61,418 nucleotides of DNA, taken from the IMG/VR virus record IMGVR_UViG_3300034110_000167, positions 1 to 61,418 of that record; one strand, written 5' to 3'. Source of the stretch: a virus. Shown piece by piece: positions 18,568-50,716 of the stretch. The notes beneath the pieces were generated by a model. The model saw nothing but the letters and a program-made list of their open reading frames with translations, did no database searches and had not been told where the DNA came from. Position 1 is the first letter of the stretch; every line of letters starts with the position of its first letter. A program made the translations under genes and the position numbers.

Positions 18568-21495
18568 ATGGGACCATTATCTATGTCTGCAAAGCAGCAT
18601 CGTGAATATCTTAAGCTACAATCTGAAGAACAAAGAAAACAAGCTAAGATGCAACAAGACGAAAGTCGTAAACAACAACTGCATGAAATTAAGCTTCAAG
18701 AAGCTGCTGCTAAGGCTAACCAAGGTATTGGTCATAAAGAAAATCTTCATGCAGCTAAACTAAATGATCTGGGTATTAAAGCACCCAGACTAAATAAACA
18801 AAAATTAGGTATCCCTAGCCAGAATCCTTTGGCAGGGGCAGGAGTATTAGGTCGAGGTCAAAAGAACCTATATGCCGAAGGTACCGATACAGTACCCGCC
18901 ATGTTAACTCCCGGTGAAGCTGTCATTCCAGAACCTGCTGCACAGAACCCTGCTAATAAGCCTATTATTAAAGCCTTAGTTGAAGAAGGTCGTGCTAAGA
19001 ATCAATTAAAAGATGGTACAGATTACGTACAAGAACAAGTACAGCCTTTAGTTAGTAATGATCCAAGATTAGGATATACAGCTCCTATGTATAACGGTAA
19101 GTACGTTGAGAATATTCCTACACGTAGCAATAATCCGGGTAACTTAATGTATGCAGGTCAGCCTAATGCTATTCCCGGTACTCCTAAAAAAGGTGGAGGT
19201 AGTTTTGCTTTGTTTGCTAATCCACAAGCAGGTGTTGAAGCCTTAGAGCGCCAAATTACATTAAACACTCAGGAACGTGGTCAGAATATCCAACAAATGA
19301 TGGCTAAGTACGCTCCTAAAAGTGAAAATAAAACTTCTAAGTATGTTAAAGACCTCTCAAAAGACCTAGGTATTAGTCCTACTGCAAAGGTTCCTGCAAA
19401 TAAAGTACCCGAGTTAGCTCGTGCTATTAGTAAGCATGAAGGTTATAAAGGTGAGTACTATGCTGACGGTACAATAGATGTTCAACACTACAATGATGGT
19501 ACCGAAAGCGTAAGTTGGTTTGATAAAGCCCTTAACTTTATTGCTGGTCAAAAACCTGAAGTTCCACCTGTAGAAGTTGTTGAAGCCCCTAAAATGCCTA
19601 ACCCTCAGACTAATCAAGAACGTAAATTAACCGTAGCTGAGAGGCATAATAATCCCGGTAATTTAATTTTTGTTAAACAAGCAGGTGCTGAACAAGGGGA
19701 ACCTAAACAGGGTGGTGGTTATTGGGCAAAGTTTCCCGACTACAATACAGGTCGTAAAGCTTTAGAAAGCCAAATTAATCTAGATACTCAAGAACGTAGT
19801 ATGAATTTAAGTGATTTTATGGAAAAGTATGCACCACGTAAGGATAAAAATGATACTGATGCTTACGTTGCTACTATTGCAAAAGACTTAGGCATTGACC
19901 CCAAAGGCAAAGTACCTGCAGAACTTATTCCTAAGCTAGCAGACACTATTACTCGTGTGGAGAGCGACGGTAAGTATGCTGTACCAACCGAAACTAAACA
20001 GATTCCCGGTGGTGGCTTTGCTACTAACGCCGGTGGTGCTGCATTTGGTAATCCCAATATTACCCGTGAAGCTGCTTTATCTGTACCAAGACAACAGGCT
20101 ATTGCCCGTGGTGAGTATGTTCCTGTTCCTGATAAAACTCAAACAACTTCAGCAATGAAGGAAAAATACCCACAAGGTATTCCTGTCACACCTGCTCAAG
20201 TAGCTGAATCAAGAACTGCTAAGGAAGTTCCTCAAGTAGAAACACAAGCACCTAGTTTACTAGAAACAAAACCCCAAGAAGCTAATAAAGTCATTGCTGA
20301 AGTATCACAAAGTAATGCGGATATTATTAAAGGCTTTATTAATGATCCTGGGTTTAATCAGATTAAAGACCCTGAAGAAAAGAAGTCATGGTTAGAAAAT
20401 GCTATTTCTTCTGTGTATGGTCCAACAGGTGTATTTAGTAATGCTGAACTAGCTCGGTTTGCTGTTATTGCTGCTGGTGGTTTATTAACTGGTGGTTCTG
20501 TAGGTGGTTCTTTAAAGTATGCTGGCTTAGATGCGCTTAAATCTGCCGATGCAAGACGTGCTCAACAAGGTGCTCGTGCTGCTGAAGAATTAAAGAACAC
20601 TCGTGAACTAACTGAACGATTAGACAGCGACTATAGAACTGCATTAGGTGAAAATGTTCCTGCAACTGTAAGGGAAAGAGCAGTTTTACTGTATCAAGAT
20701 GCTAAAACACCTGAACAGAAAAGAGCTGTTATCCAATTACTAAAAATGAACAAGTCTACCGAAGATACTACTGGTGCAGGTAAACCCGGTAATGTAAGTC
20801 AAGGTTTCTTTGATGGTAAGCCAATGAATTTCCGTAATCAAGCAGGTAATGTTCAAAGGGTTAATGCAAAAGGTGAATGGGAAAATATTCCTCCTGCTGA
20901 ATTAAAACGATTTGAGAACAAAGAACAATACGATACTAATCGTAAACAAATGCTTGACTCTACCGTAAATAGAATTACTCCTTATCTAAAAGACCTTAAC
21001 AAAGGTGATAAGAATTATAGTGCAAAAGATGATGCTCAAGCTGTTGCTGAATCACTTGCATTATTAAAAGAGGATCTTGGCCCTAATATCTCTGCAACAT
21101 CGTTTGCTAAAATGTCTGAAAATACTATCCGTTCAGCTACTGAAGCTGCTAAAGCTAATGGTACTAAATTGACTGAAGAGGGTATTCGTAAACAATTTTT
21201 TGGTAACGCTGTTATTGAAACTAAAATGGTTACGGGTAATAAAGAAATGTATATGTCTAAGGATAATAAAGGTAAGTTCATTTTACCATCCGCACCTTAT
21301 CAAGCAGCTTTGGGTTCTGCTATGGAAACATACAAGAAACAAGGTATTGATTTAGGTGAGGCTAGTAATGCCCTTGAAAAGAAATTCAATAGCTTACCTA
21401 CAGAAACTAGGAAGAAGTTTACACAGATGTCTGCTGGTGCTCCCGGCTCAACACCTATGCTATTGTGGCTACAACAAACAGGTGGCACAAACTAA
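18568..21495 (+). CDS. Internal virion protein with duplicated NPGN (lysozyme-like) domain, 975 aa
   Basis: The N-terminal part is charged and helical (about residues 8-60). Then comes GTDTVPAMLTPGEAVIP (105-121), a motif shared by many phage virion proteins. A domain of about 110 residues occurs twice, at about 185-297 and 355-470. Each copy has an NNPGNL core, a KGGG or QGGG turn, an aromatic strand, ERQITLNTQERG or its counterpart, and KDLGI. NPGN-type domains occur in virion-associated muralytic proteins, so local peptidoglycan opening is plausible. Residues about 555-975 are helical with a hydrophobic segment near 625-650. It is the middle member of the ejection-protein set. Confidence 0.72.
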   Translation: MGPLSMSAKQHREYLKLQSEEQRKQAKMQQDESRKQQLHEIKLQEAAAKANQGIGHKENLHAAKLNDLGIKAPRLNKQKLGIPSQNPLAGAGVLGRGQKNLYAEGTDTVPAMLTPGEAVIPEPAAQNPANKPIIKALVEEGRAKNQLKDGTDYVQEQVQPLVSNDPRLGYTAPMYNGKYVENIPTRSNNPGNLMYAGQPNAIPGTPKKGGGSFALFANPQAGVEALERQITLNTQERGQNIQQMMAKYAPKSENKTSKYVKDLSKDLGISPTAKVPANKVPELARAISKHEGYKGEYYADGTIDVQHYNDGTESVSWFDKALNFIAGQKPEVPPVEVVEAPKMPNPQTNQERKLTVAERHNNPGNLIFVKQAGAEQGEPKQGGGYWAKFPDYNTGRKALESQINLDTQERSMNLSDFMEKYAPRKDKNDTDAYVATIAKDLGIDPKGKVPAELIPKLADTITRVESDGKYAVPTETKQIPGGGFATNAGGAAFGNPNITREAALSVPRQQAIARGEYVPVPDKTQTTSAMKEKYPQGIPVTPAQVAESRTAKEVPQVETQAPSLLETKPQEANKVIAEVSQSNADIIKGFINDPGFNQIKDPEEKKSWLENAISSVYGPTGVFSNAELARFAVIAAGGLLTGGSVGGSLKYAGLDALKSADARRAQQGARAAEELKNTRELTERLDSDYRTALGENVPATVRERAVLLYQDAKTPEQKRAVIQLLKMNKSTEDTTGAGKPGNVSQGFFDGKPMNFRNQAGNVQRVNAKGEWENIPPAELKRFENKEQYDTNRKQMLDSTVNRITPYLKDLNKGDKNYSAKDDAQAVAESLALLKEDLGPNISATSFAKMSENTIRSATEAAKANGTKLTEEGIRKQFFGNAVIETKMVTGNKEMYMSKDNKGKFILPSAPYQAALGSAMETYKKQGIDLGEASNALEKKFNSLPTETRKKFTQMSAGAPGSTPMLLWLQQTGGTN

Positions 21496-21511: not shown

Positions 21512-24500
21512 ATGAGTACATTAGAAGAAGATGCAAGGCTATTAGCCGAATCTAAAAAGCAACAACCCGGTTCTCCGGTTACAACTATTGATGACAAACC
21601 TGTAGGTTCCCCTGTTAAAGTTATTGACCCTGATACTATCAGAGTTGGTCAAGAATCATACCGTCTCAGAGGCTTTAATGCCCCGGAAACAGCGAAGTTC
21701 CAAGGCGGTATATTTGTGCCTAACCAAGTAGCCAATGATACATCCCAACAAGATGTTAACACTATTGCAACTCTTGGTGGTTACACTAATCTAGCAACAG
21801 AGGGTCGTGACCCTTATGGTCGTGTATTAGCTAAACAGACTAACCGTATTGGTGAATCATTAGGTGATACACTTACTGCATTAGGTTTGCAAAGAACTAA
21901 CTTACATAGTACAGATGCAGCTGTTCAAAAGAACGCTACACTAGGTGCTATCTCCAGAGTTCTACCTGAGCTAACTAATGCAGATCCAATGCTCCGTTAT
22001 GCCAGAGAAGCAAAAGAAAAGGCAATAGCAGATGCTGGTGGTAACCCTTTATACATTCCTAAAGTAAATGTACATGATGAAAAAATGTATGCTGCTTTTA
22101 AAAACTCTACTGGTATCCCTGCTGTAAAAGAAGAAGTGGAAGAAGTAGCAAGGCTTGAAAAGATTCTCAAAGAAGAACAATTAAAACCTGAGACAAGAAA
22201 GAATTTACAAGCTAAACTAGAACAGTCTAAACAAAGATTATTTTTAGCTGCAACTACGCCTGATATTGTTGGTGGTACACTTGTCAGAAATTCTGATCGT
22301 AATATTATGAATCAGGCCCATGACCAGTTTGATACTACCCTACACAGAGCAGCATTAGATATGTACAAAGGTCTTGGTGGTATTCTTCAATTATCCGGTG
22401 ACAAAACTGAATGGGAATGGTTATCAACTAAGGGTCAGGAGATAGTAAGAGAAACAAAGATGAAGCAAGATAACCTTGCCGATACTCTAACTTCTTTTAA
22501 GGACATTCGTACCAATGATCCTTGGACAGCTATTAAAGATACAGCGACTTACTCAACAAACCTTATTGCAGGTACATTACCTAGTATGGCTTTGTTACTG
22601 GCTTCTACTGCTGCCACTGGTGGTACTAACCTACCAGCATTAGCTGCTTACGGTTTATCTACGGTACCTCCTGCTATTATGTACTCAGGCAGCTTCTATG
22701 CTGATCAACCTGACGACAAGAAAAATGCTGAATTAGCTTTGGTGCTAGGTCTTGGTTCTGCTGTATTAGACCGAGTTGGTCTTGATGGTATGATGATGAG
22801 TGGTAATATTCTCACCAAATCTGGTAGAGAAGAAGTTGTTAATGCATTGGTACAAGCAGGTAAAGCAGCTACACCTCAAGAAGCTATGTCTATGATTGAA
22901 ATAGCTACTAAACGTGAGTTGGTGGATATGTCTAAGGCAGGTGCTGCGTTAGCTAAGTCACAATACGCTTCTACCGAAGCTGCCTTACGTGGTTTAGGTA
23001 AACTAACTACGGCTACTGGTGGTGAAGCTTCTACCGAAAGTGCTCAACAGTACTTAGAAATGATGGCTACTACTGGTGCATGGAATACTGATATTCAATA
23101 CGAGCGTAACTTTTATCAGAACCTTATGGATGCTGCTATTGGTGGTGGTACTATGGGTGGTATGTTCCAAACAGTGGGCCAATTAAAAGATGCTGCACAG
23201 TGGCAGTCATTAGGTAATGCCAGAGAAGTTTACAATCAACAACTTACAGAAGCACAAACATTTAACAATGACCAACTATTAAGAGTACGTGAAGGTGATC
23301 CAACAGCGTATGCAAGTACAGTTGAAATGGCTCGTGGGGTTAAGTCACAACCGACAAACACTCCTGTGCCTGATCTCAAATCACTACCTGCTTTAGAAGG
23401 TGCTTGGAATGGATTTAAATCTATTGTTACTGATCCCGGTAGGTTGTTAAGGCAATTAGTTGAAACCGCTATCCCTAGTATTACTAAAGAAGACGGTACA
23501 TTTAAAACAAACCTAGGTTATCTTAAGTCTATTATTGGTGGTAAAGGTATTTTACCCGGTGATAACTATGCTGGATTTAAGCAAAGATTAATGGGTAATT
23601 GGTCTGGTAATACTGCTGAGGAATTAGCAAGTAATTTAGGCACTAACGTATCTAACGCTAATAGAATGGCAAAGGAAGCTTGGCAAAACTACTGGTCTAA
23701 AGATCAAGAACTACCACAAACAACTAAAGAAAATATTGAGCTTCAAAACTGGAAGAACAACTTAGATACTGTTATGAATAAAATGAGAACTGAAGTTTCT
23801 CGTTTTAATACAACTAGTTCTGATCTTGATTCTGTTAATCCTTTGTTTGAGTCAGCCACTATTCATCCTGCTACACTAAACCGTAACAGAGAAGCAGTTA
23901 TCAATACTATGGTAGCTAATGGTAGTACAAGAAGACAGGCCCAAGAAGCATTAGAGAATGTTGTTTCAGGTGACCCAGACAAGGCAAAGCCAGCAAGAGA
24001 CTGGATGTCTAGGTATGGTGTTTTTAGTGACCCCAAATTGAATAATGTTTTTGAAACAAACTTATTTAATAGCATGGAGAACCTGAAAGAAAACGTAGCT
24101 AATAGGATTGCCCATGAAGTATTCTTAGGTGAAAACGGTAAAGTACTTTCTAAGTTACTAACTCAAGCTAAAGCTAATGGTGAGTTTGATTCTGAGCAAG
24201 AATACATGGACACTGTAAAGAACGTTCGTGATTGGTATGATATTGTTACGGGCCAGTATAACCCTTTAACTAAATACCCTAAGTTAGAGAAAATGCTTGG
24301 TTGGGGTACTACCTTAACTATGTTAGCTTCTTTAGGTAAAGCTGCTATTAGCTCTCAAGCTGAGGTTGCTATGTCTACACTAGGTACTAATGGTAATCAG
24401 GTTAAAAACCAATTGGCATTGTACGCAAAAACATTGGCCTCAGAACTTCGTAGTGACCTGAGTGGTGGTGCTTCTTTTGCAACTGCTAGTTTAGGTATTG

Positions 24501-25693
24501 CTTACACAAGGTATAGTCCACATGCTGCTATCAATACAAAGATTGAAAAGCTACAAAAAGAATTAGACATTGCTCAACAAAGTAATGATACTAAAACTTA
24601 TGAAAGAATTTCTAAAGAAGTTTCCGACCTCCACAGAAAAGCTTTTGGCAGATCATTGTTTGAAACCTTAGGTTATAATGAAACCGGATACAACACACAA
24701 GCTAAGTTTGAATTACCTAACAGTAATATGAGAAAGACTATGCAAGTGTTTGCTGCTATTATTGGCTTGAGAGCTACTACCGACTCTGTTCGTATTGCTT
24801 CTTTGGCTTTTGCCTCTGATGCAGTTATTACTAAGCTACAATCGCTAAGAGCTATTCCAGCGGAAGATCGGGTAACAGCGTTAACTACTGGTCGTGGTTT
24901 AGATAATCAACAAGGCCAAGCTCTTAAGGAACTTCAAGAGTCAGGCATGGATGTTCTAGGTGTTATAGAAGTACTAGACAATATGGAATCAATGAATCTT
25001 GATCCGTATGACTTCTTCTCTGAACAGAACCTAACTAAAGACGGTTATCCAGCTAATACACAAGCTAAGTTCCTACAAGAAAATATTCTTACGACTATTG
25101 GTAATATGACTGATGGTAAGATAGCTAACCCACAAGCGCATAATTTACCTAAGTATTACCATGATCCACGGCTACGTATAATTACTGCAATGACTCGCTT
25201 TATTGCAACCTTGCATGCAACTGTGCTACCAAAACTATACAGAAACTATATCCTAAATGGCGATGCTGGTATGCGTTACCAAGCCTTTAGTGTTGTTGCT
25301 ATGTCTATTATGTTCTCAATGTTAGCTAACATGATCAAAGATGAATTGTCCTATGGTGAAGAAAACCCTTATATTAAGGGTAAAGTAGCTAATGCACAAA
25401 GAACATTATATGGTTCTGGTTTATTAGGTCAGTATGAAAAGTTAGTAGATGGCATTATGCCATTGTATCCAGATAAGAAACCTTCTGTATTGGATAATCC
25501 TGTAAGATGGTCTTATGAAACGTTAAAAGATATTTCACCAGTTGTATCTTGGGCAGATAAGCCTGTTCAAGGTGCATACAAATTAAGTCAGGGAGATACT
25601 GCAGGTGGCGTTGCTCAACTAGTTAGAGCTGCACCCGTTGTAGGTAGTTTCCCTATTGTAGCTAATAAAGCAAAAGAAGCTTTAAAGGAGTAA
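21512..25693 (+). CDS. Large internal virion protein with N-terminal staphylococcal-nuclease-like domain, 1393 aa
   Basis: Residues about 20-115 look like an SNase/TNase domain: [11 protein letters not shown] with Asp41, [11 protein letters not shown] with Arg51 and Glu59, and [10 protein letters not shown] with Arg104. The aspartate expected in the RGFDAPET-type motif is Asn56, so activity may be altered. The rest is long, helical and Ala/Thr/Gln-rich, with hydrophobic stretches at about 355-400, as in T7 gp15/gp16-class ejection proteins. Position between two other very large virion genes supports ejection with the DNA. The nuclease-like fold could bind or cut nucleic acid during entry. Confidence 0.72.
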
Positions 25694-25699
25694 ATATAA

Positions 25700-28600
25700 A
25701 TGGCAATTCAAACTAAAGTCGCACCTTTAGGTAGCCCGAAGTCTGGTCTTTCATTAGATCAAATGTTAGCATTACAAGGTCAAACTACAGCGGCTATGGG
25801 CACAGTACCAGCACCTGTAGAAGATCCAAGAGCCACTGTACAAGCTACAGTGGATCAGTATATGCCAGACCCAATGGCTATTCCACAACCAACTGCACCT
25901 TCAGAAGAAGTTCTTGCATCAACACCGACTATCAGAACATACGAAGATATTGCTCGTGCATCTGGTTCTCAGTTCGGTGCTCGTCCAGTAGAAGAACCTG
26001 TATTGGATGCTCAGGGTAATCCTGTAGTAGACCCCATGACAGGTATGCCCCAAATGAGGGTTATTACTCCGGAAGATTATGCGAATCAGCAGTCCATTGA
26101 AAAGGCTTCTCAGCTAAACACAATGGAAGCTATGGAAGGTATGGCTCAAGACCCTTACGGTCAAGCTAAAGACGCTACCTCCGCATTGTTGTCTGGTAAA
26201 CAAGACTCAATGTTCAATGCTTCAGCACGAGACGTTGCAAAGTCTTCTATGGATGAAGACACCATTGATAGATATTCTGACAAAACCGCTACTGCTTTGG
26301 CCACTATTGTTTCTCAAACCAATGATGCCTTGTTTACTGCTAATGCACGTATCAAGAGTGAAATGAAAGGTGCTGACGGTAGCTCTGTCCTTATTGCTGC
26401 TGGTCTTAAAGCAGCTGCTGAAGATGGTTTTAGTTCTCCGGAAGAGTTGGCTGACCTAGGTTTAGTCTTTGGCGTTGCCTTAGCTAAGTCTGCTTCACAG
26501 GGCAAAGTAGAAAAGGGTGAGAAAGAAGGTACAGGTAAAGTAATGTCTGAGTCAGGCGCATCAGTTGATGATGCTACCTACATGCTTGACTTTATTAATT
26601 CTATTAAACACTTTGCTACCAATGGTCTTAACCGTATGGGTAAAAAGGTATCAGCCAAAGCTGTTAACGAAATGGCTAAGGCTGTAGCTATGGACGCTAT
26701 TGACCGTGGTGCTGTAAAGGTATTCCATATTGGTGATCGCCCTGTAGTTCAAATGAGTTCAGATATTAAAGATATTGCTCGTGACCTACAGATTGCTTCA
26801 GAAGCTTTAGTAGGTGACTACGGTCGTAGACGCTCTTCTTCTACACCTAACCGTAGTGGTACTTCCTTTGCCGCTAACAGACCCCAATTAACTAAGCGTT
26901 CTATTAAGAAAGGTGACTTAGTTACTACTGCTGCTGAAGCTACTAAAGACATTCTCGGTTCAGTTGGTTTAATGTTTGGTGCTAAAGATATTCAATACAA
27001 AGAGATTGAACTAGGTTTAGTTATGAGTCCTGAGTATCTTGAAAAAGACTCTCAAGGTAAAATTAAGTGGAGTAATCATTGGGCGGCCAAGCGTTTAGGA
27101 GTAAGTGAAAAAGATTTCAATGCAGCTAAAATGAAAACAAAGCCTGAGAAAGACTTTAATCCTGCAGACCCAGATGCTGTTAGACGCTTTGAGGCACAAC
27201 AGGAATACCAAGCAACAGAAGTTATTAATAACAAACTAAAGACCATTGAGTTTGATATTAAGAACGCTAAAAGTTCTCCCGGTATTCGTTACTCAGAATG
27301 GGTACACAGTTTATCTAACCAACGATTCTTCCCTAACAGCTTTGACGTAGACTACATGGGTTCCAAAAATGCAACTCGTGATATGCTAGGTTTTGCAGTT
27401 AAAGAATATGTTACTTCAGACATGTTGTTTGATCCACGTACAGTAGAAAACCTTAAGCAAAAAGCTATTGGTATCCTACGTATGCCCGGTGAAAAACAAA
27501 ATGAAGCTTTAGAAAAATTAACACCTTCTGAGCGTGGTGCTATTGGCACTATGCTTAATGCTGTTATTGGTTACTACTCTGCCGTTGAAGGTTCTAATCC
27601 TGACATTGTTAAGGAAGCACCCGCATCTATTGTATCTAAATATACACCTGCTATTGGTGATAAACTAGCTGAGGCTGGTAGAGACTATAATGCTTTCCTT
27701 GTTGATCCTATGAATGCCTCTGATAACATTCAGGAGCTATTAGCCGGTATGGAAAAAGGCGAATCTATGGGTTCTAAAAACCTGTGGGATGACATGTTTA
27801 ATCTAAAGGCTGCTTCACTCATTCCTGAAACAAAGCGTAAGCATATTCCATTAACTCACCATGCATTTGACGATGGTAATCAGAACGGTATTTTCTTACA
27901 GGCACTATTCTTTGGTAGTCCTGATAATGCTATTCGTCTGGGTACCTTTAATCCCTCATTGGATGACATGCGTGAGTACGCAATGAATACCATGATTGCT
28001 AATTTGGAAGAGAACTTAAAAGATAATATTGAGGCTAACGATGCCTTCAGAAATTTCTTTAAGGCCGTTAGAGATAAGCAAGGTAAAGCAGTTATGTCTA
28101 AAGATTTCTTCAAGAAACCTTTGATGCAGAATGCTTATGGTAAAGATGCCAGTATGTTTGGTGATATGATGGTTGAAATCTTAACCAACGTATACCCAGA
28201 TGAAGCACAACAATACTTATTGAACAGCAGTGTTTACAACCGTGATGTTGATAAAGCATCCTCAGCTTTGAGTGACGCATTAGAAAGCACTCTCAGAGAA
28301 GTTATTAACTCTAAATCAACACAAGTTCTTAAAGACATTGGCCGGTATACAGCTATCCTTAACCAAACAGTTATGATGCCTGGTATTACTGGCGACACCT
28401 ATGTGCTTACACCTGTAGAGGTTGTACCTATTAACAAAGCAAATGATAGTGGAGAAATCTTACCTATTAAGCTTGATGATGGTACTACTGTTATGGTTAA
28501 GTATAAGGCGTATGAGTCAGATACTTTTATTAACAGTGAAGGTCAAGAAGTAACTGTGGAGTCAAGTGCTATGGGCTACAGTCCTGCAGCAAGTAAAGGC

Positions 28601-29494
28601 GCTCAGTTAATTTACAACCAAAGAACTAAAAAGTATGATGTGTTTAACAACGCTATTGGTACAAGTCAGTCACGACAAATGGTAGTTATGCCTATCCAGT
28701 CTATTGACGGTGACTTAGTTAAGTCTACTACACTATCTGTGAATAAAAATAGATCAACTCCAGTACCTATTTTATGGGTACACGACTCAGCTATTTCTAC
28801 TCCGGGCGGCTCATTGCTGTATCGTAATGCCTATAACAATATCTCTATTCCTAAAGCTATTCCTCAAATTGCTAAGTTTGGAAATCAATTTGCAGCTGTT
28901 ATTAAAGACAGTGAAGAAGCGGTGTTCAACAAAGTAATGGAAAGGGGTCGTCCAGTAAGTATCGGTGATCAAGGGGACTTCCCTGCACTAGGCTCTTACC
29001 TAGATGAGCAGTTTGAAAGAGTACAAGATGATGGTGCTTATAAACAAATCTTCTTAAAGAGAGCTTATAACAACGAAACAACTTGGCTGAAATACCAACA
29101 GAAGACTAACGCTATTCTAAAAGAAGCTGAAGCTAATGGTTGGAAAGCACCAAGAAGTATTCCCGATACAGCCAATATGACTGGTGAACAGATCAGAAGA
29201 CACCTTGCGGTTACACCAAGGCAATTCAAAAACTTAGTTAATCTTTCTAAAGAAATGTTAAAGCTAAGTGGACCCTCAAATAGGTTTGATTCTTGGGTTC
29301 GTAACTTCGCAAGTAATGTTAATGATACTGCTTCTAAGCTAATGACTGCATCTAAGAAAGATGGTATTGGTCAAATGACTTATGGCGCTACTGGTGAACG
29401 TGCTGGTATTACTAAGTCTAAAGCTATTGCTGAACAAATGGATATTAAACGAGACGAAGAGTTCGTAGCTAAATACGAAAAAGCTTTTAAGTAA
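25700..29494 (+). CDS. Putative virion-packaged single-subunit RNA polymerase (N4 vRNAP-like), 1264 aa
   Basis: The last and convergently terminated internal virion gene contains the four landmarks of T7-family RNA polymerases in order. The T/DxxGR region appears as SNQRFF with Arg542, followed by SKNATRDML. Motif A is DDGNQNGI with Asp725 aligned to T7 Asp537. Motif B is SKDFFKKPLMQNAYG with Lys805 and Tyr813-Gly814, at the exact 8-residue spacing of T7 Lys631-Tyr639. Motif C is ILWVHDSA with His1028-Asp1029. The N-terminal about 400 residues are Pro/Ala/Gln-rich and may serve packaging or ejection. Enterobacteria phage N4 injects a polymerase of this kind to transcribe early genes. This one is far shorter than N4's (about 3500 aa). 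No function was assigned by search; the call rests on motif order and spacing. Confidence 0.8.
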   Translation: MAIQTKVAPLGSPKSGLSLDQMLALQGQTTAAMGTVPAPVEDPRATVQATVDQYMPDPMAIPQPTAPSEEVLASTPTIRTYEDIARASGSQFGARPVEEPVLDAQGNPVVDPMTGMPQMRVITPEDYANQQSIEKASQLNTMEAMEGMAQDPYGQAKDATSALLSGKQDSMFNASARDVAKSSMDEDTIDRYSDKTATALATIVSQTNDALFTANARIKSEMKGADGSSVLIAAGLKAAAEDGFSSPEELADLGLVFGVALAKSASQGKVEKGEKEGTGKVMSESGASVDDATYMLDFINSIKHFATNGLNRMGKKVSAKAVNEMAKAVAMDAIDRGAVKVFHIGDRPVVQMSSDIKDIARDLQIASEALVGDYGRRRSSSTPNRSGTSFAANRPQLTKRSIKKGDLVTTAAEATKDILGSVGLMFGAKDIQYKEIELGLVMSPEYLEKDSQGKIKWSNHWAAKRLGVSEKDFNAAKMKTKPEKDFNPADPDAVRRFEAQQEYQATEVINNKLKTIEFDIKNAKSSPGIRYSEWVHSLSNQRFFPNSFDVDYMGSKNATRDMLGFAVKEYVTSDMLFDPRTVENLKQKAIGILRMPGEKQNEALEKLTPSERGAIGTMLNAVIGYYSAVEGSNPDIVKEAPASIVSKYTPAIGDKLAEAGRDYNAFLVDPMNASDNIQELLAGMEKGESMGSKNLWDDMFNLKAASLIPETKRKHIPLTHHAFDDGNQNGIFLQALFFGSPDNAIRLGTFNPSLDDMREYAMNTMIANLEENLKDNIEANDAFRNFFKAVRDKQGKAVMSKDFFKKPLMQNAYGKDASMFGDMMVEILTNVYPDEAQQYLLNSSVYNRDVDKASSALSDALESTLREVINSKSTQVLKDIGRYTAILNQTVMMPGITGDTYVLTPVEVVPINKANDSGEILPIKLDDGTTVMVKYKAYESDTFINSEGQEVTVESSAMGYSPAASKGAQLIYNQRTKKYDVFNNAIGTSQSRQMVVMPIQSIDGDLVKSTTLSVNKNRSTPVPILWVHDSAISTPGGSLLYRNAYNNISIPKAIPQIAKFGNQFAAVIKDSEEAVFNKVMERGRPVSIGDQGDFPALGSYLDEQFERVQDDGAYKQIFLKRAYNNETTWLKYQQKTNAILKEAEANGWKAPRSIPDTANMTGEQIRRHLAVTPRQFKNLVNLSKEMLKLSGPSNRFDSWVRNFASNVNDTASKLMTASKKDGIGQMTYGATGERAGITKSKAIAEQMDIKRDEEFVAKYEKAFK

Positions 29495-29547: not shown

Positions 29548-29803
29548 ATTTACTTAGCTCTTTAATTTGGGACCGTACATCATCAGCTAACTTATCAGCC
29601 AAAGATAAAGCACTATCACTATCAATACCACGCTCAAGGTAAGACTCATAATTCTCTCGGTGCATTGCTTTAATAGCAGCATCATTAATGGCAGGTGTAT
29701 TAGCTAGCCGTGGGTCTAGCCCAAGGGTAGAGCATACATCCTGATCGGTTGTTTCGGTATCACCACGAAGGGCAAATAAATTATAATGTTTTAACTCAGA
29801 CAT
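29546..29803 (-). CDS. Hypothetical protein, 85 aa
   Basis: I place the start at the ATG at 29803 (MSELKHYNLFALRGD). GGAAAG lies 7 bases upstream and the gene overlaps the end of the Dps-like gene. An earlier in-frame ATG at 29818 is possible. The product is acidic and helical. No family is recognised. It is the last gene of the minus-strand block and ends at the bidirectional terminator. Confidence 0.65.
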   Translation of the reverse strand: MSELKHYNLFALRGDTETTDQDVCSTLGLDPRLANTPAINDAAIKAMHRENYESYLERGIDSDSALSLADKLADDVRSQIKELSK

Positions 29804-30222
29804 GAATCTACTTTCCATTTAAGTTTAGAGACTCCAGTCATATAGTCTCCGATATATGTTTCTAAGGCACCGTGGCCCTCAGCACCTGCTTCTTCATATA
29901 GTTTTTGGCTACAATCAAGAATCATTTTAAGATCATTACAGGTATTTGTCAGCATATCCTTTAACTTAGTCTCACCGGCAGATACATTAACAATACTGTC
30001 TGTAAGATAACTCTTCAAACTAATAGGTACTTTGTAACCCATTTGACGAAGCTGTTCGTTTAATGTGTCATGGTTCTCAAAAAGATATGTGTATACTTCA
30101 CTAAACAAATTGTGATACTGAACAAAGTCAGGACCAACAACGTTAAAGTGGTATACATGTGCGTTAAAATATGCCAGAAAATTATCGGCAATAAGGTTAT
30201 TCAGTTTTGTTTGGCAACTCAT
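29791..30222 (-). CDS. Dps-like ferritin-family protein
   Basis: The 143-aa protein shows the Dps ferroxidase signature: HFNVVGPDF with His25, then QYHNLFSEVY with His37 and an acidic residue five further on. The predicted layout is four helices, with a closing KLKWKVDSCLS segment. Dps proteins form 12-mers that oxidise and store iron and protect DNA from oxidative damage. Phage copies are known mainly from aquatic metagenomes. Whether it acts in the cell or in the virion cannot be told. It overlaps both neighbours in a compact operon. Confidence 0.85.
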   Translation of the reverse strand: MSCQTKLNNLIADNFLAYFNAHVYHFNVVGPDFVQYHNLFSEVYTYLFENHDTLNEQLRQMGYKVPISLKSYLTDSIVNVSAGETKLKDMLTNTCNDLKMILDCSQKLYEEAGAEGHGALETYIGDYMTGVSKLKWKVDSCLS

Positions 30223-30888: not shown

Positions 30889-30963
30889 TGGAGGGTAGTA
30901 GAGGAATCGAACCCCTATTCAAGCGGTAGAAGCACTTTGTATTATCCGTTATACGAACCACCC
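30889..30963 (-). tRNA. tRNA-Arg (TCT)
   Basis: A full cloverleaf can be drawn: acceptor GGGTGGT/ACTACCC with one G-T pair, D stem GTAT/ATAC, anticodon loop CTTCTAC (TCT), T loop TTCGATT, and encoded CCA. It reads AGA, a codon rich in this AT-rich genome. Confidence 0.9.
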
Positions 30964-31012
30964 AATAGTTTGCACCCTTTATTTTACTATGCGGGTGCTA
31001 CATAGGACGCCT
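30964..31012 (-). other. Short spacer with a 6-bp hairpin
   Basis: GCACCC (30972-30977) pairs with GGGTGC (30993-30998) across a 15-base loop, between the homing endonuclease gene and tRNA-Arg. There is no T-run, so it may be a processing site and not a terminator. Confidence 0.4.
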
Positions 31013-31537
31013 TTACTGTGACGACAACAGCCCTAAGGTATTCCCATTTAAGGGAGGGATCTTTTCAAAGCTATATCCTTGATGTGTACTTTGTTTACCA
31101 TTTAAACATTTATACACTGCTTCTGGAGTAAAACCAAAATCTTTTAATTCATTTTTACCTGATAATGTAATTGACACACCATCTTTAACAGCCTTAATTT
31201 TGTATTTAGTTAAACCAATTCTACTTTTATTACCAATAGCTTGTTTACCATTAGGTTTAGGTGGCTTACCACCTCCTTTAATAATGTTCCAACCTATTTT
31301 ATCATTAGGTCTAAGCATTTCTTCAGCAAGCAAAACTAATTCTTCATCTAATCCAACAACTAACGGTTGCTTAATTAATTTATCCCAAGAATATTTTGAT
31401 ATAACATTATTTAAAATAGCGTTAGGGTAAGCAAAGTGTTCTTTCATTCGCCTATCAAAATTATTTGTAATGCCAATATATCCTTGAGAGTTATAGTCAT
31501 TATGGTTAGGACTACAGATCCAATATAATGTATACAT
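31013..31537 (-). CDS. GIY-YIG homing endonuclease with NUMOD-type DNA-binding module
   Basis: The 174-aa protein has a GIY-YIG domain at its N-terminus (YWICSPNHNDYNSQGYIGIT, then NNFDRRMKEH, with Arg30 and a later Glu). A basic Gly/Pro/Lys linker follows, then a C-terminal NUMOD1/IENR1-like repeat (LSGKNELKDFGFTPEAVYKC). This layout is that of free-standing phage homing endonucleases. It sits inside the tRNA cluster, between tRNA-Met and tRNA-Arg, a common site for such mobile genes. Confidence 0.88.
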   Translation of the reverse strand: MYTLYWICSPNHNDYNSQGYIGITNNFDRRMKEHFAYPNAILNNVISKYSWDKLIKQPLVVGLDEELVLLAEEMLRPNDKIGWNIIKGGGKPPKPNGKQAIGNKSRIGLTKYKIKAVKDGVSITLSGKNELKDFGFTPEAVYKCLNGKQSTHQGYSFEKIPPLNGNTLGLLSSQ

Positions 31538-31552
31538 ATAGTCCTTTCTATT

Positions 31553-31626
31553 TGGAAGCGGGTACTGGATTCGAACCAGTGATGCTGCGAGCTTATGAGA
31601 CTGCAGTAGTGACCACCTTACCCGCT
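31553..31626 (-). tRNA. tRNA-Met-like (CAT), irregular
   Basis: The acceptor AGCGGGT/ACCCGCT is perfect, the T arm (ACTGG/CCAGT, loop TTCGAAT) is canonical and CCA is encoded. The anticodon loop is CTCATAA (CAT). The anticodon stem only pairs with a bulged base, and the D arm is short (GGT/ACT). It may be a diverged or decaying copy, or one read as Ile after modification. Confidence 0.65.
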
Positions 31627-31632
31627 ATTGTT

Positions 31633-31709
31633 TGGTCTCAAGAACCGGACTCGAACCGATAACCAATGAATTATGAGTTCACTGCTCTAACCAGTTGAGC
31701 TATCTTGAG
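31633..31709 (-). tRNA. tRNA-Met (CAT)
   Basis: A regular cloverleaf: acceptor CTCAAGA/TCTTGAG, D arm AGCTCAACTGGTTAGAGC, anticodon loop CTCATAA, T loop TTCGAGT, encoded CCA. A CAT anticodon could also decode ATA if the cytosine is lysidylated. The sequence alone does not decide this. Confidence 0.9.
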
Positions 31710-31717
31710 TATTTGTT

Positions 31718-31793
31718 TGGCATACCCCGTAGGACTTGAACCTACAACCTGTGGGTTTGGAATCCACTGCTCTGCCAATTGAGCTAGAGGCAC
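31718..31793 (-). tRNA. tRNA-Trp (CCA)
   Basis: Acceptor GTGCCTC pairs with GGGGTAT with several G-T pairs. The D arm is AGCTCAATTGGCAGAGC, the anticodon loop TTCCAAA (CCA), the T arm GTAGG/CCTAC, and CCA is encoded. One A-C mismatch closes the anticodon loop. Confidence 0.88.
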
Positions 31794-31800
31794 ATTTGTT

Positions 31801-31888
31801 TGGTGGATGCTCTTGGAATCGAACCAAGTGTGCTCCTTAGAGCGGAGGATTTACAATCCCCTGAAGTCACCAATGCTTCTCAACATCC
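31801..31888 (-). tRNA. tRNA-Tyr (GTA), long variable arm
   Basis: Acceptor GGATGTT/AGCATCC, anticodon loop TTGTAAA (GTA), a long variable arm (CGCTCTAAGGAGC) as expected for bacterial class II tRNA-Tyr, T loop TTCGATT and encoded CCA. Confidence 0.9.
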
Positions 31889-31894
31889 TTTGTT

Positions 31895-31970
31895 TGGCTG
31901 GCAAACCTGGGCTCGAACCAGGGACATCATGATTAACAGTCATGCGCTCTACCAACTGAGCTATATGCCA
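31895..31970 (-). tRNA. tRNA-Asn (GTT)
   Basis: Acceptor TGGCATA/TTTGCCA with one T-T mismatch, D arm AGCTCAGTTGGTAGAGC, anticodon stem CATGA/TCATG with loop CTGTTAA (GTT), T arm CCTGG/CCAGG, encoded CCA. It is the first tRNA downstream of the promoter repeat at 32057. Confidence 0.92.
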
Positions 31971-32056: not shown

Positions 32057-32078
32057 TTTCCTATTAGGAACCGGCTAG
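32057..32078 (-). promoter_or_regulatory. Phage promoter repeat, minus orientation, upstream of the tRNAs
   Basis: On the minus strand the sequence is TAGCCGGTTCCTAATAGGAA followed by AC. It overlaps the last codons of nrdB, whose C-terminal Ala-Gly-Ser-stop is encoded by GCC GGT TCC TAA of the element. It faces the tRNA cluster, which otherwise has no obvious promoter. Confidence 0.65.
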
Positions 32079-33044
32079 TTTACCCCAGTCCCAGTCACCT
32101 TCCATACCATTAATAGAGTATTCAGTAACACGCTTCTCAAAGAAATTGTCATGGGACACACCATTAAGAATCCAGTCTAACCAAGTCAGTGGATTCTCTT
32201 TTACTTTGAAGTTAGTCTTAAGACCTAGTTGAAGCAATCTACGATCGGTAATATACCGGATGTACTGCTTAACATCTTCTTTAGTAATACCTTCAATATC
32301 ATATTCGGCAAATGCAAGATCAATAAAGCTATCTTCAAGACCAACTACATCTCGAGCCATCTGATAAATCTTAGATTTAAATTCATCATTAACTACTTTA
32401 GGGTGCTCATTACAGAACTCCCTGAATAGCCGTGAGTTACCTTCTACGTGTACAGTCTCATCTCTAATAGACCATTCAACAATAGTGCTCATACCTTTCA
32501 TCTTACCAAACCGTTGTAGGTTAAGTAGCATAACAAAGGAAGCAAACAAAGATACACCTTCGTTTAATACTGACTTAGCTAATGACAAGGCCAAGCCCGA
32601 TTGTGTTGATGAGTCAGACCTAGCCATAAAGTCAATCTTGTCCGACATTTCTTTATAGTCAAGAAACTTATGAAACTCTTCGTCAGGTAAACCTAAGGTG
32701 TCGTTGAGTAAAGCATAAGCACGTTGGTGGGTACCTTCACGACCAGCAAAGGAACCTAACATAACTCGTACTTCATTGTTTTTAAACTTAGGAATTAAGA
32801 AGTCATAATAGTTCTGACCTACTTGTACATCGCCCTGAGTAAACAACCGTAAGATATTAGTAATAAAATCTTTTTCACCATTTGTTAACTTGATTTTCCA
32901 ATCATTAACGTCTTCAGATAAGTCAGCCTCATCCTCTGTCCAGTGAATCTCTTCGTGTTTCTTAGTAATTTCTACAGCCCATTCATGGTTAAATGGTTTG
33001 TAGGTCTTAGAGAAATTTAGTAATGATGACATATTATCCTTCAC
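32064..33044 (-). CDS. nrdB: Ribonucleotide reductase class I small subunit
   Basis: The 326-aa protein has the di-metal ligand motifs of NrdB: EGTHQRAY (Glu, His and the radical-type Tyr four residues after the His), LNEGVSLFASF and IRDETVHVEG. It generates the radical used by NrdA to reduce ribonucleotides to deoxyribonucleotides for phage DNA synthesis. The start overlaps the end of nrdA by 11 bases, so the subunits are coupled. It ends inside a promoter repeat. Confidence 0.95.
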   Translation of the reverse strand: MKDNMSSLLNFSKTYKPFNHEWAVEITKKHEEIHWTEDEADLSEDVNDWKIKLTNGEKDFITNILRLFTQGDVQVGQNYYDFLIPKFKNNEVRVMLGSFAGREGTHQRAYALLNDTLGLPDEEFHKFLDYKEMSDKIDFMARSDSSTQSGLALSLAKSVLNEGVSLFASFVMLLNLQRFGKMKGMSTIVEWSIRDETVHVEGNSRLFREFCNEHPKVVNDEFKSKIYQMARDVVGLEDSFIDLAFAEYDIEGITKEDVKQYIRYITDRRLLQLGLKTNFKVKENPLTWLDWILNGVSHDNFFEKRVTEYSINGMEGDWDWGKLAGS

Positions 33045-35013
33045 AAGCTTTACATTCGTTATCTTCTTGAACTACTTCAGTTAACTCTTTGTAGAGTTCG
33101 TTGAATCCCCCAATGTATACACCATTGAGATATACCTGAGGTAAGGATCTAACATCAGGTCGTCCTGTGATTTCTGCTGCTGTTTTGCCTGTAGTTGTGA
33201 TGTCAACATATTCAAATTCAATTCCTCGGGAGTCAAGCAAGGACTTTGCCATAGTGCATTGGGGGCAGTTTGGTTTACCATAAATAATTGTTTCCTTAAT
33301 TTCAATCAATTTGTCTTCCTTTACCTTTTCAGATACATTCTCTGCCCGTTGTTTAGCTTCGGTACGTAAGTAGTATAAACCTTTAAGACCTTTATCCCAT
33401 GATTTAAAGTGTACCGAGTTAACATAACTTCTGTCAGCACCTGCAGGGAACGCCAGATTAACTGATTGCCCTTGGCAGATATATCTTTGACGATCTGCTG
33501 CATGGTCTACAACCCAATGCTGATCTAATTCAAAGAATGTTTTAAAAATATCTTTTGTTTCTTTGGATAAATCTAAGTGTTGAATACTACCTTTGTTAGT
33601 AATAATAGAAGACCAAACAGCTTCTGTATTCATACCTAGTGCATCAAGCTTCTTCTCAAGGTATTTGTTTTTAACTAAGAAAGAACCTGCACGGGTACGG
33701 TGAGTGTAAGCATTTGCCTTGTTAGGCTCAATACTAGGAGACGTACTCAGTAAAATACCTGAAGAGGCGTTAGGCGCAATAGCTAGTAGGTGAGCATTAC
33801 GTTTGCCGCTACCAACCATATCTAAGGCTTCTCCACGATATTCACCTAACCAATAAGTTTCTTTTAAAGCTTGTTGCTTAATACGACTGAAAATAGTAAT
33901 GTTGTTTAGACGGGCTTCATCAGATTCAAAAGGAATACCTTTACGTTGTAAATATTCATGGAAACCCATAGCACCCAGACCAATAGAGCGTTCATGTTTA
34001 GCTGAGAACACAGCCCGTGATAATGCATCATGAGCGTTCTCAATAAAGTATTCTAGTACGTTATCAAGCATACGTACTAAGTCTTCAACCATATGGGTAT
34101 CTTTCCAATCATCGTAGTATTCTAAGTTGACTGAAGATAAACAGCATACTGCGGTACGGTCTTCACTGGTAGGTAAATGAATTTCATTACACAAATTACT
34201 ACCGTGAATTTTAAGACTTTTATCCTTTAGTTCTTGTGGTAAAGCTTCGTTAGCCGTATCAATAAAGTTTAAGTATGGTTCACCAGTACGGAAACGAGTC
34301 TCAAGCAACTTAGCCCACACAGTACGTGCATCTAGGAATTCACCTGTGTTACCTACTTTGGGGTCTACCAATTCATAGGTTTTACCGCTCCGAACACAAT
34401 CCATAAAATGATCACTGATATTAACAGCATTATGGAGATTAAAACACTTACGATTAACATCGCCTGTGGGAATACGTAAACCAATGAATTCAAGAATATC
34501 AGGGTGATCAATGTTAAGATAGGCAGCATAAGAACCTTTCCGGGTTTTTCCTTGTCGATAAGCAGTCATATCAGCATCTACTGTATGTAAGAATGGGATA
34601 GGGCCAGGCGCTACGTCCGATACTGAACGAACATCAGACCAATGGCCACCAACACCACCACCCATTACAGACAACCAACGTAGCTCAGAGGAATGATCAA
34701 TCAAGCCTTGTACAGTATCAGGTACGTATGTAAGGAAACAACTAATAGGTAATCCTTTAGCTTTCTGACCGTCAATAGGTGCATTTGAAAGCACAGGAGA
34801 GGCAAACATAAACCACTTCTTAGACACATAGTCATACAGACGTTGTGCCAAGTCTTCGTCTCGTACACCTTTGTATACGCTCCATGCCCATGCTGCTCGT
34901 GCAAACACGTCTTGTGGGGAATTTTCACCCTCTTTAGAATAAAAATCCATGATCATATCTACAGCATAATCTGTAAGCAAAGTATCACGGATGTATTCAA
35001 TCTTAATATTCAT
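33034..35013 (-). CDS. nrdA: Ribonucleotide reductase large subunit with fused glutaredoxin
   Basis: The 659-aa protein has the catalytic NLCNE (Asn273, Cys275, Glu277), the redox cysteines at Cys92 and Cys290, and the paired tyrosine region of NrdA. There is no ATP-cone at the N-terminus, so the usual dATP switch may be missing. Residues about 575-645 are a glutaredoxin domain (KPNCPQC, Cys583/Cys586, later LPQVYLNG and GGF). The last residues, ECKACEG (Cys654/Cys657), look like the swinging redox tail of NrdA placed beyond the glutaredoxin. A promoter repeat lies upstream at 35039. Confidence 0.95.
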   Translation of the reverse strand: MNIKIEYIRDTLLTDYAVDMIMDFYSKEGENSPQDVFARAAWAWSVYKGVRDEDLAQRLYDYVSKKWFMFASPVLSNAPIDGQKAKGLPISCFLTYVPDTVQGLIDHSSELRWLSVMGGGVGGHWSDVRSVSDVAPGPIPFLHTVDADMTAYRQGKTRKGSYAAYLNIDHPDILEFIGLRIPTGDVNRKCFNLHNAVNISDHFMDCVRSGKTYELVDPKVGNTGEFLDARTVWAKLLETRFRTGEPYLNFIDTANEALPQELKDKSLKIHGSNLCNEIHLPTSEDRTAVCCLSSVNLEYYDDWKDTHMVEDLVRMLDNVLEYFIENAHDALSRAVFSAKHERSIGLGAMGFHEYLQRKGIPFESDEARLNNITIFSRIKQQALKETYWLGEYRGEALDMVGSGKRNAHLLAIAPNASSGILLSTSPSIEPNKANAYTHRTRAGSFLVKNKYLEKKLDALGMNTEAVWSSIITNKGSIQHLDLSKETKDIFKTFFELDQHWVVDHAADRQRYICQGQSVNLAFPAGADRSYVNSVHFKSWDKGLKGLYYLRTEAKQRAENVSEKVKEDKLIEIKETIIYGKPNCPQCTMAKSLLDSRGIEFEYVDITTTGKTAAEITGRPDVRSLPQVYLNGVYIGGFNELYKELTEVVQEDNECKACEG

Positions 35014-35070: not shown

Positions 35071-37278
35071 TTAGCAAAAGAAATATTTTGAATTAATTAC
35101 TTCGGCTAAGTCTAAATTACCTAGCTCAGGTTGTTCAAAAGTAAAGGAGTCTTTGTTAAGCATCAAAGTATCTTTAAGTACTTCAAAGAAGTTTTCCACA
35201 TCATATTGTGCAATGAATGTTACTTTAGTTACTTCTTGTAGAAAGTCCACTTCATCAGCATGGGTACTAAATGAGTCGTGAACCGCACCAAATGAACCAT
35301 TGAAAGAAACAATAGTGTTAGCCATATGAGCAGCATCATAGGAATGAACAACGTTAGGGCTAATACCAGACGCAAAACTACGGCGGCAAGGTACACGCTC
35401 ATTAGTCTCTTTATTAATGACATCGACTTTAACCACATGCATGACACGACCGTCTTTATTGCCTTGAATACCTTTAATAGTACCACGTTGTTTCCTTTCA
35501 TGTTGTAGGTTAGCCTTATACACTACAGGAAAACCACTTGGGGTATGCCAAGTTAAATTGTTACGGCCAGAGTTTAATTCATGTTCAGCTATTTTCTGTA
35601 GGAACTTAGTAGTTTTCAGTGGACCAGCACATACACTGTTAATAGCTTTAATAAGGTTACTGGCAAGGTTATTACAGTCATCCTCACTGATACCATACTT
35701 TACCGTAAAGCCTTCCATGTGACAGTCATCGTACATGTTCTTTGCAATACGTTGCTTACCCGCTGAGTATGCTCGGGTCATAGAACCACGTTTGGCAATG
35801 CCTTTACGGATATGTTTCATGGGCATTTGCTTTTCATTAAACCATTCAGGCATAACAGTAATAAGCTCTTTAGCTACAGCTACATAGAAGTCTTTCTGAA
35901 TAGGAGTAGGTACTAAGGAGACTAATGTACCTGCTTGTTTATCCTTAGACATAGCTGCCAGATGTTGCCAACCGTTGTTACTACCATCAATAGGAATAGG
36001 AAACCCTGACATGTATTCTTGTCGTAAGATTTTACACTTATGATATGCAGCAATCTCAATACAACAAGCTAAGAAGCTATAAGGTTTTTCGGCACTGTGA
36101 TCAATGTATTTAGCACGAGCTGATTGAATAATAAACTCTAGGTTATGTTTAACCCATAGAGCACGATCATCCAACGTCATTTTATCTACAGAGATAGTGT
36201 CCAGACCTTCATCTTGGAGGTATTTAGCATAATCTGTGGTAAGGTATACCATACTTTTAAGCTCATCGATTGAATATGATTTGTTGTAACAAGCTGCAGT
36301 GTGTACGCTAAGCCAGTAGTAGCCTCGTTCACTGACCCGTTTTTTGTTAGCAAACAAAAACAAGGATCGAGCAAGATCACTTCCTTGGAATTCAAGAAAG
36401 GATTCAGCGTAATATACTCGTCCACGATAGTCACAGGATACCTCTTGATAAAATGTTTTGTTACCAACCAACTCAGCCTTCTTAATGACTTGATTATACT
36501 CAAAGTATTTACTAAGCATACGTTGTAGCTTAGGGTCTTTCTTACCTAAGAATTTTGTACCGTCAAGGTTATTAAGCTTCTTTGGTAAGTGCAGGTTTTC
36601 ATGGTGGATATTGTATAGTTGGATCTCACCATTTTCATCGACTAACTCTAGTACTTCTGGTGGTTTAACCGCTTTCATAGCAGACAACAATGGCTGATTT
36701 AATTGCCAAGGTTGTTGGCGTAACCCTTCAAGACTTTGAATGAAAGGTTTACTTAAGTACTCGTGAAACAGTTTACTGTTAGTCCATCCTTTAATAAAAG
36801 GTTCTTTAGTTAAAGGGCTATATAAACCAGCAATAGGTAGTAAGGGCTCAAAAGAAGTACCGATAAGTGTAGGCTTAATGTCATCGTCCATATTAACAAT
36901 ACGAACTAAGTAAGGTGCCTTACGACCATCGTATTCTCTGAAGATATCTATTAGGCTATCTTGTAGGAATGTCTCAAGTAGAAGATCTCCCAGAGACAAA
37001 GTAGTTTTGATATCTGATTCGTCAGCCCCAATACCTCGGGCAATTCTCTTTCCAATAAGATCAGATGCAAATGTGAGTTTAACGGATGCTGAATGAGTAG
37101 CATTTTTATTTCGGATACAGTATTTGAGTAAGGTATCCCATGCCTCATTGATAAATCGTTCGAGATCATACTCCCAAGTTGAATGATGTGCCAGAAGACG
37201 AGCACCTTCATTCTGAATCTTATCTGAGTTGAGGGCAATCTTCGATACACGTTCAGTAAGATATTGTAGTGGATTCAT
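35071..37278 (-). CDS. T7-like single-subunit RNA polymerase
   Basis: The 735-aa protein contains DYRGRVYY (Asp283-Arg287), motif A PIPIDGSNNGWQH (Asp431), motif B AKRGSMTRAYSAG (Lys496, Tyr504) and motif C VHDSFST (His667-Asp668). The length is a little below T7's 883 aa. Tyr504 is followed by Ser-Ala-Gly, not Gly. It should transcribe the phage's middle and late genes, probably from the repeated GGTACCTAATAGG element. It is transcribed with primase-helicase and DNA polymerase. The genome encodes a second, divergent polymerase in the virion. Confidence 0.96.
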   Translation of the reverse strand: MNPLQYLTERVSKIALNSDKIQNEGARLLAHHSTWEYDLERFINEAWDTLLKYCIRNKNATHSASVKLTFASDLIGKRIARGIGADESDIKTTLSLGDLLLETFLQDSLIDIFREYDGRKAPYLVRIVNMDDDIKPTLIGTSFEPLLPIAGLYSPLTKEPFIKGWTNSKLFHEYLSKPFIQSLEGLRQQPWQLNQPLLSAMKAVKPPEVLELVDENGEIQLYNIHHENLHLPKKLNNLDGTKFLGKKDPKLQRMLSKYFEYNQVIKKAELVGNKTFYQEVSCDYRGRVYYAESFLEFQGSDLARSLFLFANKKRVSERGYYWLSVHTAACYNKSYSIDELKSMVYLTTDYAKYLQDEGLDTISVDKMTLDDRALWVKHNLEFIIQSARAKYIDHSAEKPYSFLACCIEIAAYHKCKILRQEYMSGFPIPIDGSNNGWQHLAAMSKDKQAGTLVSLVPTPIQKDFYVAVAKELITVMPEWFNEKQMPMKHIRKGIAKRGSMTRAYSAGKQRIAKNMYDDCHMEGFTVKYGISEDDCNNLASNLIKAINSVCAGPLKTTKFLQKIAEHELNSGRNNLTWHTPSGFPVVYKANLQHERKQRGTIKGIQGNKDGRVMHVVKVDVINKETNERVPCRRSFASGISPNVVHSYDAAHMANTIVSFNGSFGAVHDSFSTHADEVDFLQEVTKVTFIAQYDVENFFEVLKDTLMLNKDSFTFEQPELGNLDLAEVINSKYFFC

Positions 37279-50548: not shown

Positions 50549-50716
50549 TTAAAAGAGAAGTGTAATGGCTGTTAATACTGATACGGATACGAAAGCCGTG
50601 GCTAATACAGCTAACATAATTTTAGCTGTTTTTAAGGTGAAATTATCTTTGAAGAACCAGTAACTACCGGCCACAACAAACATTGTCAGGAAGAATACAA
50701 ATAGCAATTTAATCAT
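50549..50716 (-). CDS. Small membrane protein, 55 aa
   Basis: The frame MIKLLFVFFLTMFVVAGSYW, a short basic loop, then IMLAVLATAFVSVSVLTAIT gives two transmembrane helices. The start overlaps the RNA ligase stop (ATGATTAA). It precedes the coiled-coil and SPFH genes, so the three may form a membrane module. Confidence 0.65.
   Translation of the reverse strand: MIKLLFVFFLTMFVVAGSYWFFKDNFTLKTAKIMLAVLATAFVSVSVLTAITLLF

Follow-up and report, generated by a model that had tools for sequence, protein, structure and literature searches.

A compact and divergent candidate virion RNA polymerase in the ejection operon of a podophage with an SU10-type capsid

What does the third gene of the ejection operon encode in the virus record IMGVR_UViG_3300034110_000167 (IMG/VR), and could its product enter the host cell as an enzyme? 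The whole stretch of DNA analysed, 61,418 bases, is called the window below. A preliminary description had proposed that this 1264-amino-acid (aa) protein is a compact virion RNA polymerase of the T7 family. Injected single-subunit RNA polymerases (RNAPs) count as a signature of N4-like phages, whose virion RNAP (vRNAP) comprises 3500 aa with an extra two thirds that are poorly understood. The gene and the polymerase motifs found in its product are the following:

25700 to 29494, plus strand: predicted virion single-subunit RNAP, 1264 aa, third gene of the ejection operon (open reading frame, motifs, fold and match to the N4 vRNAP profile).
27317 to 27331, plus strand: NQRFF (residues 540-544) with the invariant Arg542, an Arg in 31/31 sequences having this position.
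27869 to 27892, plus strand: motif A, DDGNQNGI (724-731), with the predicted catalytic Asp725, aligned with T7 D537 and N4 D559.
28097 to 28141, plus strand: motif B, SKDFFKKPLMQNAYG (800-814), with Lys805 and Tyr813, aligned with T7 K631/Y639 and N4 K670.
28694 to 28717, plus strand: IQSIDGDL (999-1006), with Q1000 and D1003 fixed, aligned with T7 FVHSQDGSHL.
28775 to 28792, plus strand: motif C, WVHDSA (1026-1031), with His1028 and the predicted catalytic Asp1029, aligned with T7 HDS and N4 FDG.

The coordinates and length of the open reading frame, the motifs and the residues R542, D725, K805, Y813, G814, H1028 and D1029 had all been given exactly in the preliminary description. NQRFF is presumably the counterpart of the T/DxxGR-type motif of single-subunit RNAPs. 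In the T7 RNAP record D537, K631, Y639 and D812 are at the expected places, and the Lys-to-Tyr spacing within motif B is thus identical in both proteins, as claimed (8 from K805 to Y813 and 8 from K631 to Y639). Among 20,000 shuffled versions of the protein, not one contained a strict ordered pattern with polymerase-like spacings (R[FVY][FY] ... D4xG ... K7xYG ... HDS), and a looser ordered pattern from which the Arg motif was omitted occurred in 92 of 20,000. A Gly five positions after the motif A Asp and an HDS in motif C are features of the RNAP type and not of the DNA-polymerase type.

The window protein has no match above threshold in Pfam, including PF00940, in PHROGs, in NCBIfam or in a PDB sequence search. 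The AlphaFold2 model of residues 181-1264, obtained with a 31-sequence alignment, has a pLDDT of 86.6 and a pTM of 0.84, and its best 50 Foldseek matches in the PDB are all single-subunit RNAPs (mitochondrial, T7 and N4 vRNAP). Yeast mitochondrial RNAP (E 2.4e-13) is among the best of them, human POLRMT is also found, and T7 RNAP 3e3j (E 9.5e-12, TM 0.56 by target length) and the N4 mini-vRNAP (E 2.1e-9) follow. In a viral structure library, most of the named matches are DNA-directed or virion RNA polymerases. Whether a polymerase with fingers and palm would be predicted at all can thus be answered: the confident model has a single-subunit RNAP fold. The structural RMSDs of the PDB matches are large, 9-17 A, meaning that the domain arrangement differs and that the likeness is one of superfamily fold and not of close structure.

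To compare the sequence with known polymerases, profiles were built from 14 N4-like vRNAPs and from seven T7-type RNAPs. With hhalign, the close-family profile matched the N4 vRNAP profile with an E-value of 1.9e-5, and of 6.3e-6 for the core alone. The score of this core, 58.3, compares with at most 25.4 reached by column shuffles (n=60). The match is in register over motif A (DDGNQNG/ADGVTNG) and motif B (FKKPLMQNAYG/AKNPLTITIYG). Motif C aligns with the N4 vRNAPs only in a wider profile, that of the first 13 sequences, where HDS lies over FDG (E 4.1e-5). The score drops to 36 (E 0.005-0.011) once all 27 sequences are in the profile, and even so exceeds the shuffles. The family of the preceding ejection protein, taken as a negative control, gave an E-value of 0.28 against N4 vRNAP. 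Against the T7-type RNAP profile the hhalign match did not rise above column shuffles, even if motifs A to C could be aligned with the T7-type RNAPs in one profile of 13 sequences (E 0.011). In the profile comparison called for in the preliminary description, N4 vRNAP is hence matched above shuffles and T7-type RNAP is not, and the label "T7-family" proves too narrow because the sequence is nearer to N4 vRNAP.

Relatives were collected from IMG/VR by searches that started from the 1264-aa protein, from alignments or from the region spanning motifs A to C. A main clade comprises 27 sequences, window included, with 32-95% identity to the window protein over residues 181-1264. A divergent clade, at about 19-23% identity, surrounds gp33 of Roseobacter phage CRP-7, the only one of 50,697 phage records searched with a match to the family. 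The two clades match each other with an hhalign E-value of 6e-24. In bacterial and archaeal genomes, one per species, no relative was found with motif-region patterns. Throughout the 27 main-clade sequences R542, D724-G730, K805, Y813, H1028 and D1029 are invariant; about 68 of the 1264 positions are, and six of the seven named residues belong to them. The seventh, G814, is a Ser in two of the 27. With the divergent sequences included, D725 and Y813 are each present in 32/32 and H1028 and D1029 in 31/31 sequences having the position, and G730 and K805 are each found in 27/27 of the main clade. Also fixed in the main clade are Q1000, D1003, N1043 and Y1045-N1047. K801, the equivalent of T7 R627, is variable (Lys in the window, Ser/Ala/Thr in 17/27), but this is a supporting and not a strictly defining position. 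The five sequences of the CRP-7 clade retain R542, D725, Y813, G814, H1028 and D1029, and differ in having Arg at position 805 and Asn at position 730. Conservation of Asp725, Lys805, Tyr813 and Asp1029, on which the earlier proposal had staked itself, therefore holds throughout the main clade and fails for K805 in the CRP-7 clade. The model of the CRP-7 clade is of low confidence (pLDDT 60.6) and adds weak support only, its top 50 matches being again exclusively single-subunit RNAPs.

These results bear on two readings in which the protein is no RNA polymerase at all. An accidental likeness of the motifs, arising in an otherwise ordinary ejection protein, would agree with the empty searches of Pfam, PHROGs and NCBIfam; we give this next to no credence in view of the structure match, the profile match above shuffled controls and the fact that the named residues are fixed among relatives. 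A relative of family A DNA polymerases could be suspected from a weak PF00476 match in 9/31 members (best E 0.0015). In the members displayed, however, this match is confined to a stretch of some 50 residues at motif C, motif A is not of the DYSQIE type, a Gly replaces the sugar-gate Glu of DNA polymerases, and the top structural matches are all RNA polymerases, which makes a DNA polymerase highly improbable. The 1264-aa protein is almost certainly a single-subunit RNAP homologue.

The following features form the context of its gene in the window:

18568 to 21495, plus strand: first ejection protein, 975 aa, transglycosylase/endolysin-like, no Cys (matches to PHROG families of endolysins and of injection transglycosylases).
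21512 to 25693, plus strand: second ejection protein, 1393 aa, probable channel as judged from position and synteny, no Cys.
3402 to 4499, plus strand: SU10-type major capsid protein (PF17236, E 2e-75).
36 to 1550, plus strand: SU10-type portal protein (PF23899, E 5e-77).
35071 to 37278, minus strand: ordinary T7-type RNA polymerase, 735 aa, non-virion (phrog_414, E 9.8e-99).

The capsid and portal matches, together with a T7-like DNA polymerase, primase-helicase and exonuclease, bear out the earlier view of a phage combining an SU10 capsid with T7-like replication. Hydrophobic stretches are seen in the 1393-aa protein. The trio of nearly cysteine-free ejection proteins, with the polymerase third, is kept in order in 14/15 loci, and the remaining locus is cut by the contig end within its first gene. 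The gap before the polymerase gene ranges from -4 to +13 bases in the loci examined. The 1264-aa protein has no cysteine where about 20 would be expected from the Cys content of the phage's other proteins (P ~3e-9), and the T7-type RNAP encoded in the window has 11 versus none in the three ejection proteins. PF00940 is found once per genome in all 13 genomes of the family that were searched, namely CRP-7 and 12 contigs. Its place as third gene of the ejection operon and its lack of cysteine indirectly make it likely that the 1264-aa protein is packaged in the virion.

To look for transcription signals, repeated motifs in the window were examined. The sequence TAGYCGGTWCCTAATAG is present in seven copies where 0.03 would be expected:

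55252 to 55269, minus strand, with further copies at 11722 (plus), 32060 (minus), 35042 (minus), 43936 (minus), 53772 (minus) and 58539 (plus): TAGYCGGTWCCTAATAG, likely T7-type RNAP promoters.

These copies are located at or between gene ends, in sense orientation to the genes that follow. The same sequence was found again in three relatives, and two further relatives have the variant AGTTGTCCCCTAATAG with the same CCTAATAG ending. As TAGYCGGTWCCTAATAG resembles T7-class promoters, a T7-type RNAP is its likely reader. No second repeated motif family was found in the early region, and hence no candidate promoter for the 1264-aa protein; nor is a strong hairpin, as in N4-like promoters, common to the early regions of the window and its nearest relative. 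Sigma-70-like sites number 46 against 50 expected from shuffles, i.e. not above chance. The early region contains two or three good ones, such as TTGACA-18-TATGAT at 57356, so that the host RNAP could start the infection.

If the protein is an RNAP homologue, is it an active one, and would it act early? Among the remaining readings, that of a polymerase fold now serving mainly as a structural ejection protein, a conduit or a DNA-threading device with RNA synthesis lost or vestigial in at least some clades, takes its strength from the CRP-7 clade, with its Arg in place of the catalytic Lys and its Asn in place of the motif A Gly, and from the location of the gene among ejection proteins. We regard it as unlikely, since the main-clade catalytic residues are all fixed down to 32% identity, which a purely structural role would not require. 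It is also unlikely that the virion polymerase is active in something other than early transcription, for instance in a primase-like or DNA-internalising function, while host RNAP starts the infection as in T7. The missing dedicated promoter, the sigma-70-like sites of the early region (the one at 57356 among them) and the presence of a T7-type RNAP gene would fit such a role; yet these sites are no commoner than in shuffles, and N4 vRNAP, the nearest enzyme known, acts in early transcription. An ordinary intracellular late RNAP, unpackaged and encoded merely by chance of position at the end of a structural operon, seems very improbable: the synteny with the two ejection proteins is invariant, the absence of Cys is common to the trio and not found in the T7-type RNAP with its 11 Cys, and that T7-type RNAP is already there for the late genes.

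On the best reading, then, the protein is a virion RNAP of compact size and great divergence, and its capsid lineage is not known to possess such an enzyme. The compact virion polymerase of the preliminary description gains support from the fold, the N4-vRNAP-like sequence, the conserved catalytic residues, the position as third ejection gene and the lack of Cys. Given packaging and homology, catalytic activity and a start of early transcription by this protein are likely. The polymerase would be made late and packed in the capsid with the transglycosylase-like protein and the channel protein of about 1400 aa. It would then be driven into the cell together with the DNA or in front of it, and may there transcribe the first genes of the arriving genome at a time when no phage protein has yet been made. 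These first genes are presumably those of the minus-strand block that begins near 58.5 kb, and the enzyme may possibly help to pull the DNA in. The early products would include the T7-type polymerase (35071-37278), which would use the TAGYCGGTWCCTAATAG promoters for the middle and late genes. We put the probability of this whole account, an active packaged RNAP that starts early transcription before the T7-type RNAP takes over, at roughly two in three.

How does this compare with known systems? T7 RNAP itself is made in the cell and not packaged. In crAss-like phages, transcription begins with an injected RNA polymerase, and a second RNAP is non-virion. The 1264-aa protein shares with T7-type (Autographiviridae) RNAPs the fold superfamily, the K-Y spacing of motif B and the HDS of motif C, but differs from them by the lack of a profile match above shuffles and by its coexistence with a separate true T7-type RNAP. 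N4 gp50, the vRNAP of Schitoviridae type, is nearest by sequence profile, has a single-subunit RNAP fold and is devoid of Cys in all its 3500 aa, and the N4 genome likewise encodes a second single-subunit RNAP (vRNAP plus RNAP II). In contrast to the N4 enzyme of about 3500 aa, the window protein has 1264 aa, with neither the large C-terminal domain nor the HExxH metallopeptidase motif, which is absent from 27/27 family members, this one included, and it has HDS instead of FDG in motif C. The capsid and portal of the window phage are of SU10 type and not of the N4 (Schitoviridae) type. N4 gp50 is the third protein of its ejection operon (PMC12633501), as is the 1264-aa protein. The preliminary description had listed only N4-like and some crAss-like phages as known to inject a polymerase. 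To this list must be added phiKZ-like jumbo phages and Thermus phage P23-45, in which an injected RNAP starts transcription and the second RNAP is non-virion (PMC7598289, PMC10770324). The virion RNAPs of phiKZ-like phages, crAss-like phages and P23-45 are kin of cellular multisubunit RNAPs, with a fold unlike that of the 1264-aa protein.

Virion RNAPs beyond Schitoviridae have been proposed earlier, for StenR_269/Zobellviridae, where the argument is confined to size, helicity and the absence of Cys, and for Pseudoalteromonas phage vB_PunP_Y3 (Poorviridae), whose polymerase was assigned to the N4-like RNAPs via PSI-BLAST (PMC10747016, PMC11654794). Neither proposal covers the family of the 1264-aa protein. 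The Zobellviridae candidate ICP2 gp6 was considered as a protein of the same kind and rejected, the motif set being absent. As the preliminary description supposed, no account of such a polymerase in SU10-capsid phages was found in family libraries or open-licence literature, although a description that escaped us is possible. The homologue CRP-7 gp33 (23% identity) lies in the same gene order as in the window phage, in a genome whose major capsid protein is of the same type (52% identical) and whose T7-type RNAP is gp30. Unlike the window protein, gp33 has the K805R and G730N replacements, and it is annotated as "hypothetical". In the CRP-7 paper, ORF30 alone is called RNA polymerase (PMC6918029).

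An RNAP-type fold with intact catalytic residues in a probable ejection protein suggests that this phage carries an enzyme for transcription into its host. With about 1200-1400 aa, about a third of the classic size, and in a capsid lineage other than that of N4, this version shows a possible minimum for such enzymes. It also makes a further polymerase available for comparisons of promoter recognition and of the passage of enzymes through a phage tail. CRP-7 gp33 provides a cultured and testable relative, if one with two active-site changes, and a "hypothetical" protein of a widespread marine phage group would find its explanation. More tentatively, and with somewhat less than even confidence, the SU10-capsid podophage lineage of CRP-7-type phages and many environmental relatives may use a two-step, host-independent cascade, in which the first genes are read by a compact injected RNAP from a separate, very divergent branch of the single-subunit enzymes before a T7-type RNAP takes over. 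If true, virion single-subunit RNAPs would exist well outside the N4-like phages and would be functional without the giant flanking domains of N4.

Divergent relatives of the predicted virion polymerase, grouped around Roseobacter phage CRP-7 gp33, carry Arg in place of the catalytic Lys of motif B (K805 in the window polymerase) and Asn in place of the motif A Gly (G730). Both changes are present at locus L004 (17205-20909) and also at L009, L010, L011 and L013; they may represent either a working swap or a loss of activity. At the N-terminus of the second ejection protein (window 21512-22000, plus strand), a resemblance to staphylococcal nuclease was noted; the Pfam SNase match is weak and was obtained in one relative only (E 0.13). 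A ferritin/Dps-like gene adjoins the end of the ejection operon, and the large subunit of the ribonucleotide reductase bears a thioredoxin-family C-terminal part.

Other genes of the window
12031-12714, plus: PhoH-like protein
29791-30222, minus: ferritin/Dps-like protein (PF00210, E 1.1e-12)
30889-31970, minus: five tRNA genes, one each for Arg, Met, Trp, Tyr and Asn
31013-31537, within this tRNA cluster: GIY-YIG/NUMOD-type homing-endonuclease-like gene
32064-35013, minus: aerobic ribonucleotide reductase pair
50709-51734, minus: RNA ligase

The promoter-like motif TAGYCGGTWCCTAATAG occurs seven times in the window (11722+, 32060-, 35042-, 43936-, 53772-, 55252- and 58539+) versus 0.03 copies expected. 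It is also kept in three relatives, and two others have the variant AGTTGTCCCCTAATAG. These copies are probably promoters read by the separate 735-aa T7-type RNA polymerase. Immediately upstream of the terminase gene, window 57890-58450 has an odd make-up and comes with a possible hydrophobic ORF of 168 aa (57988-58494, minus strand), which could be the first early gene.
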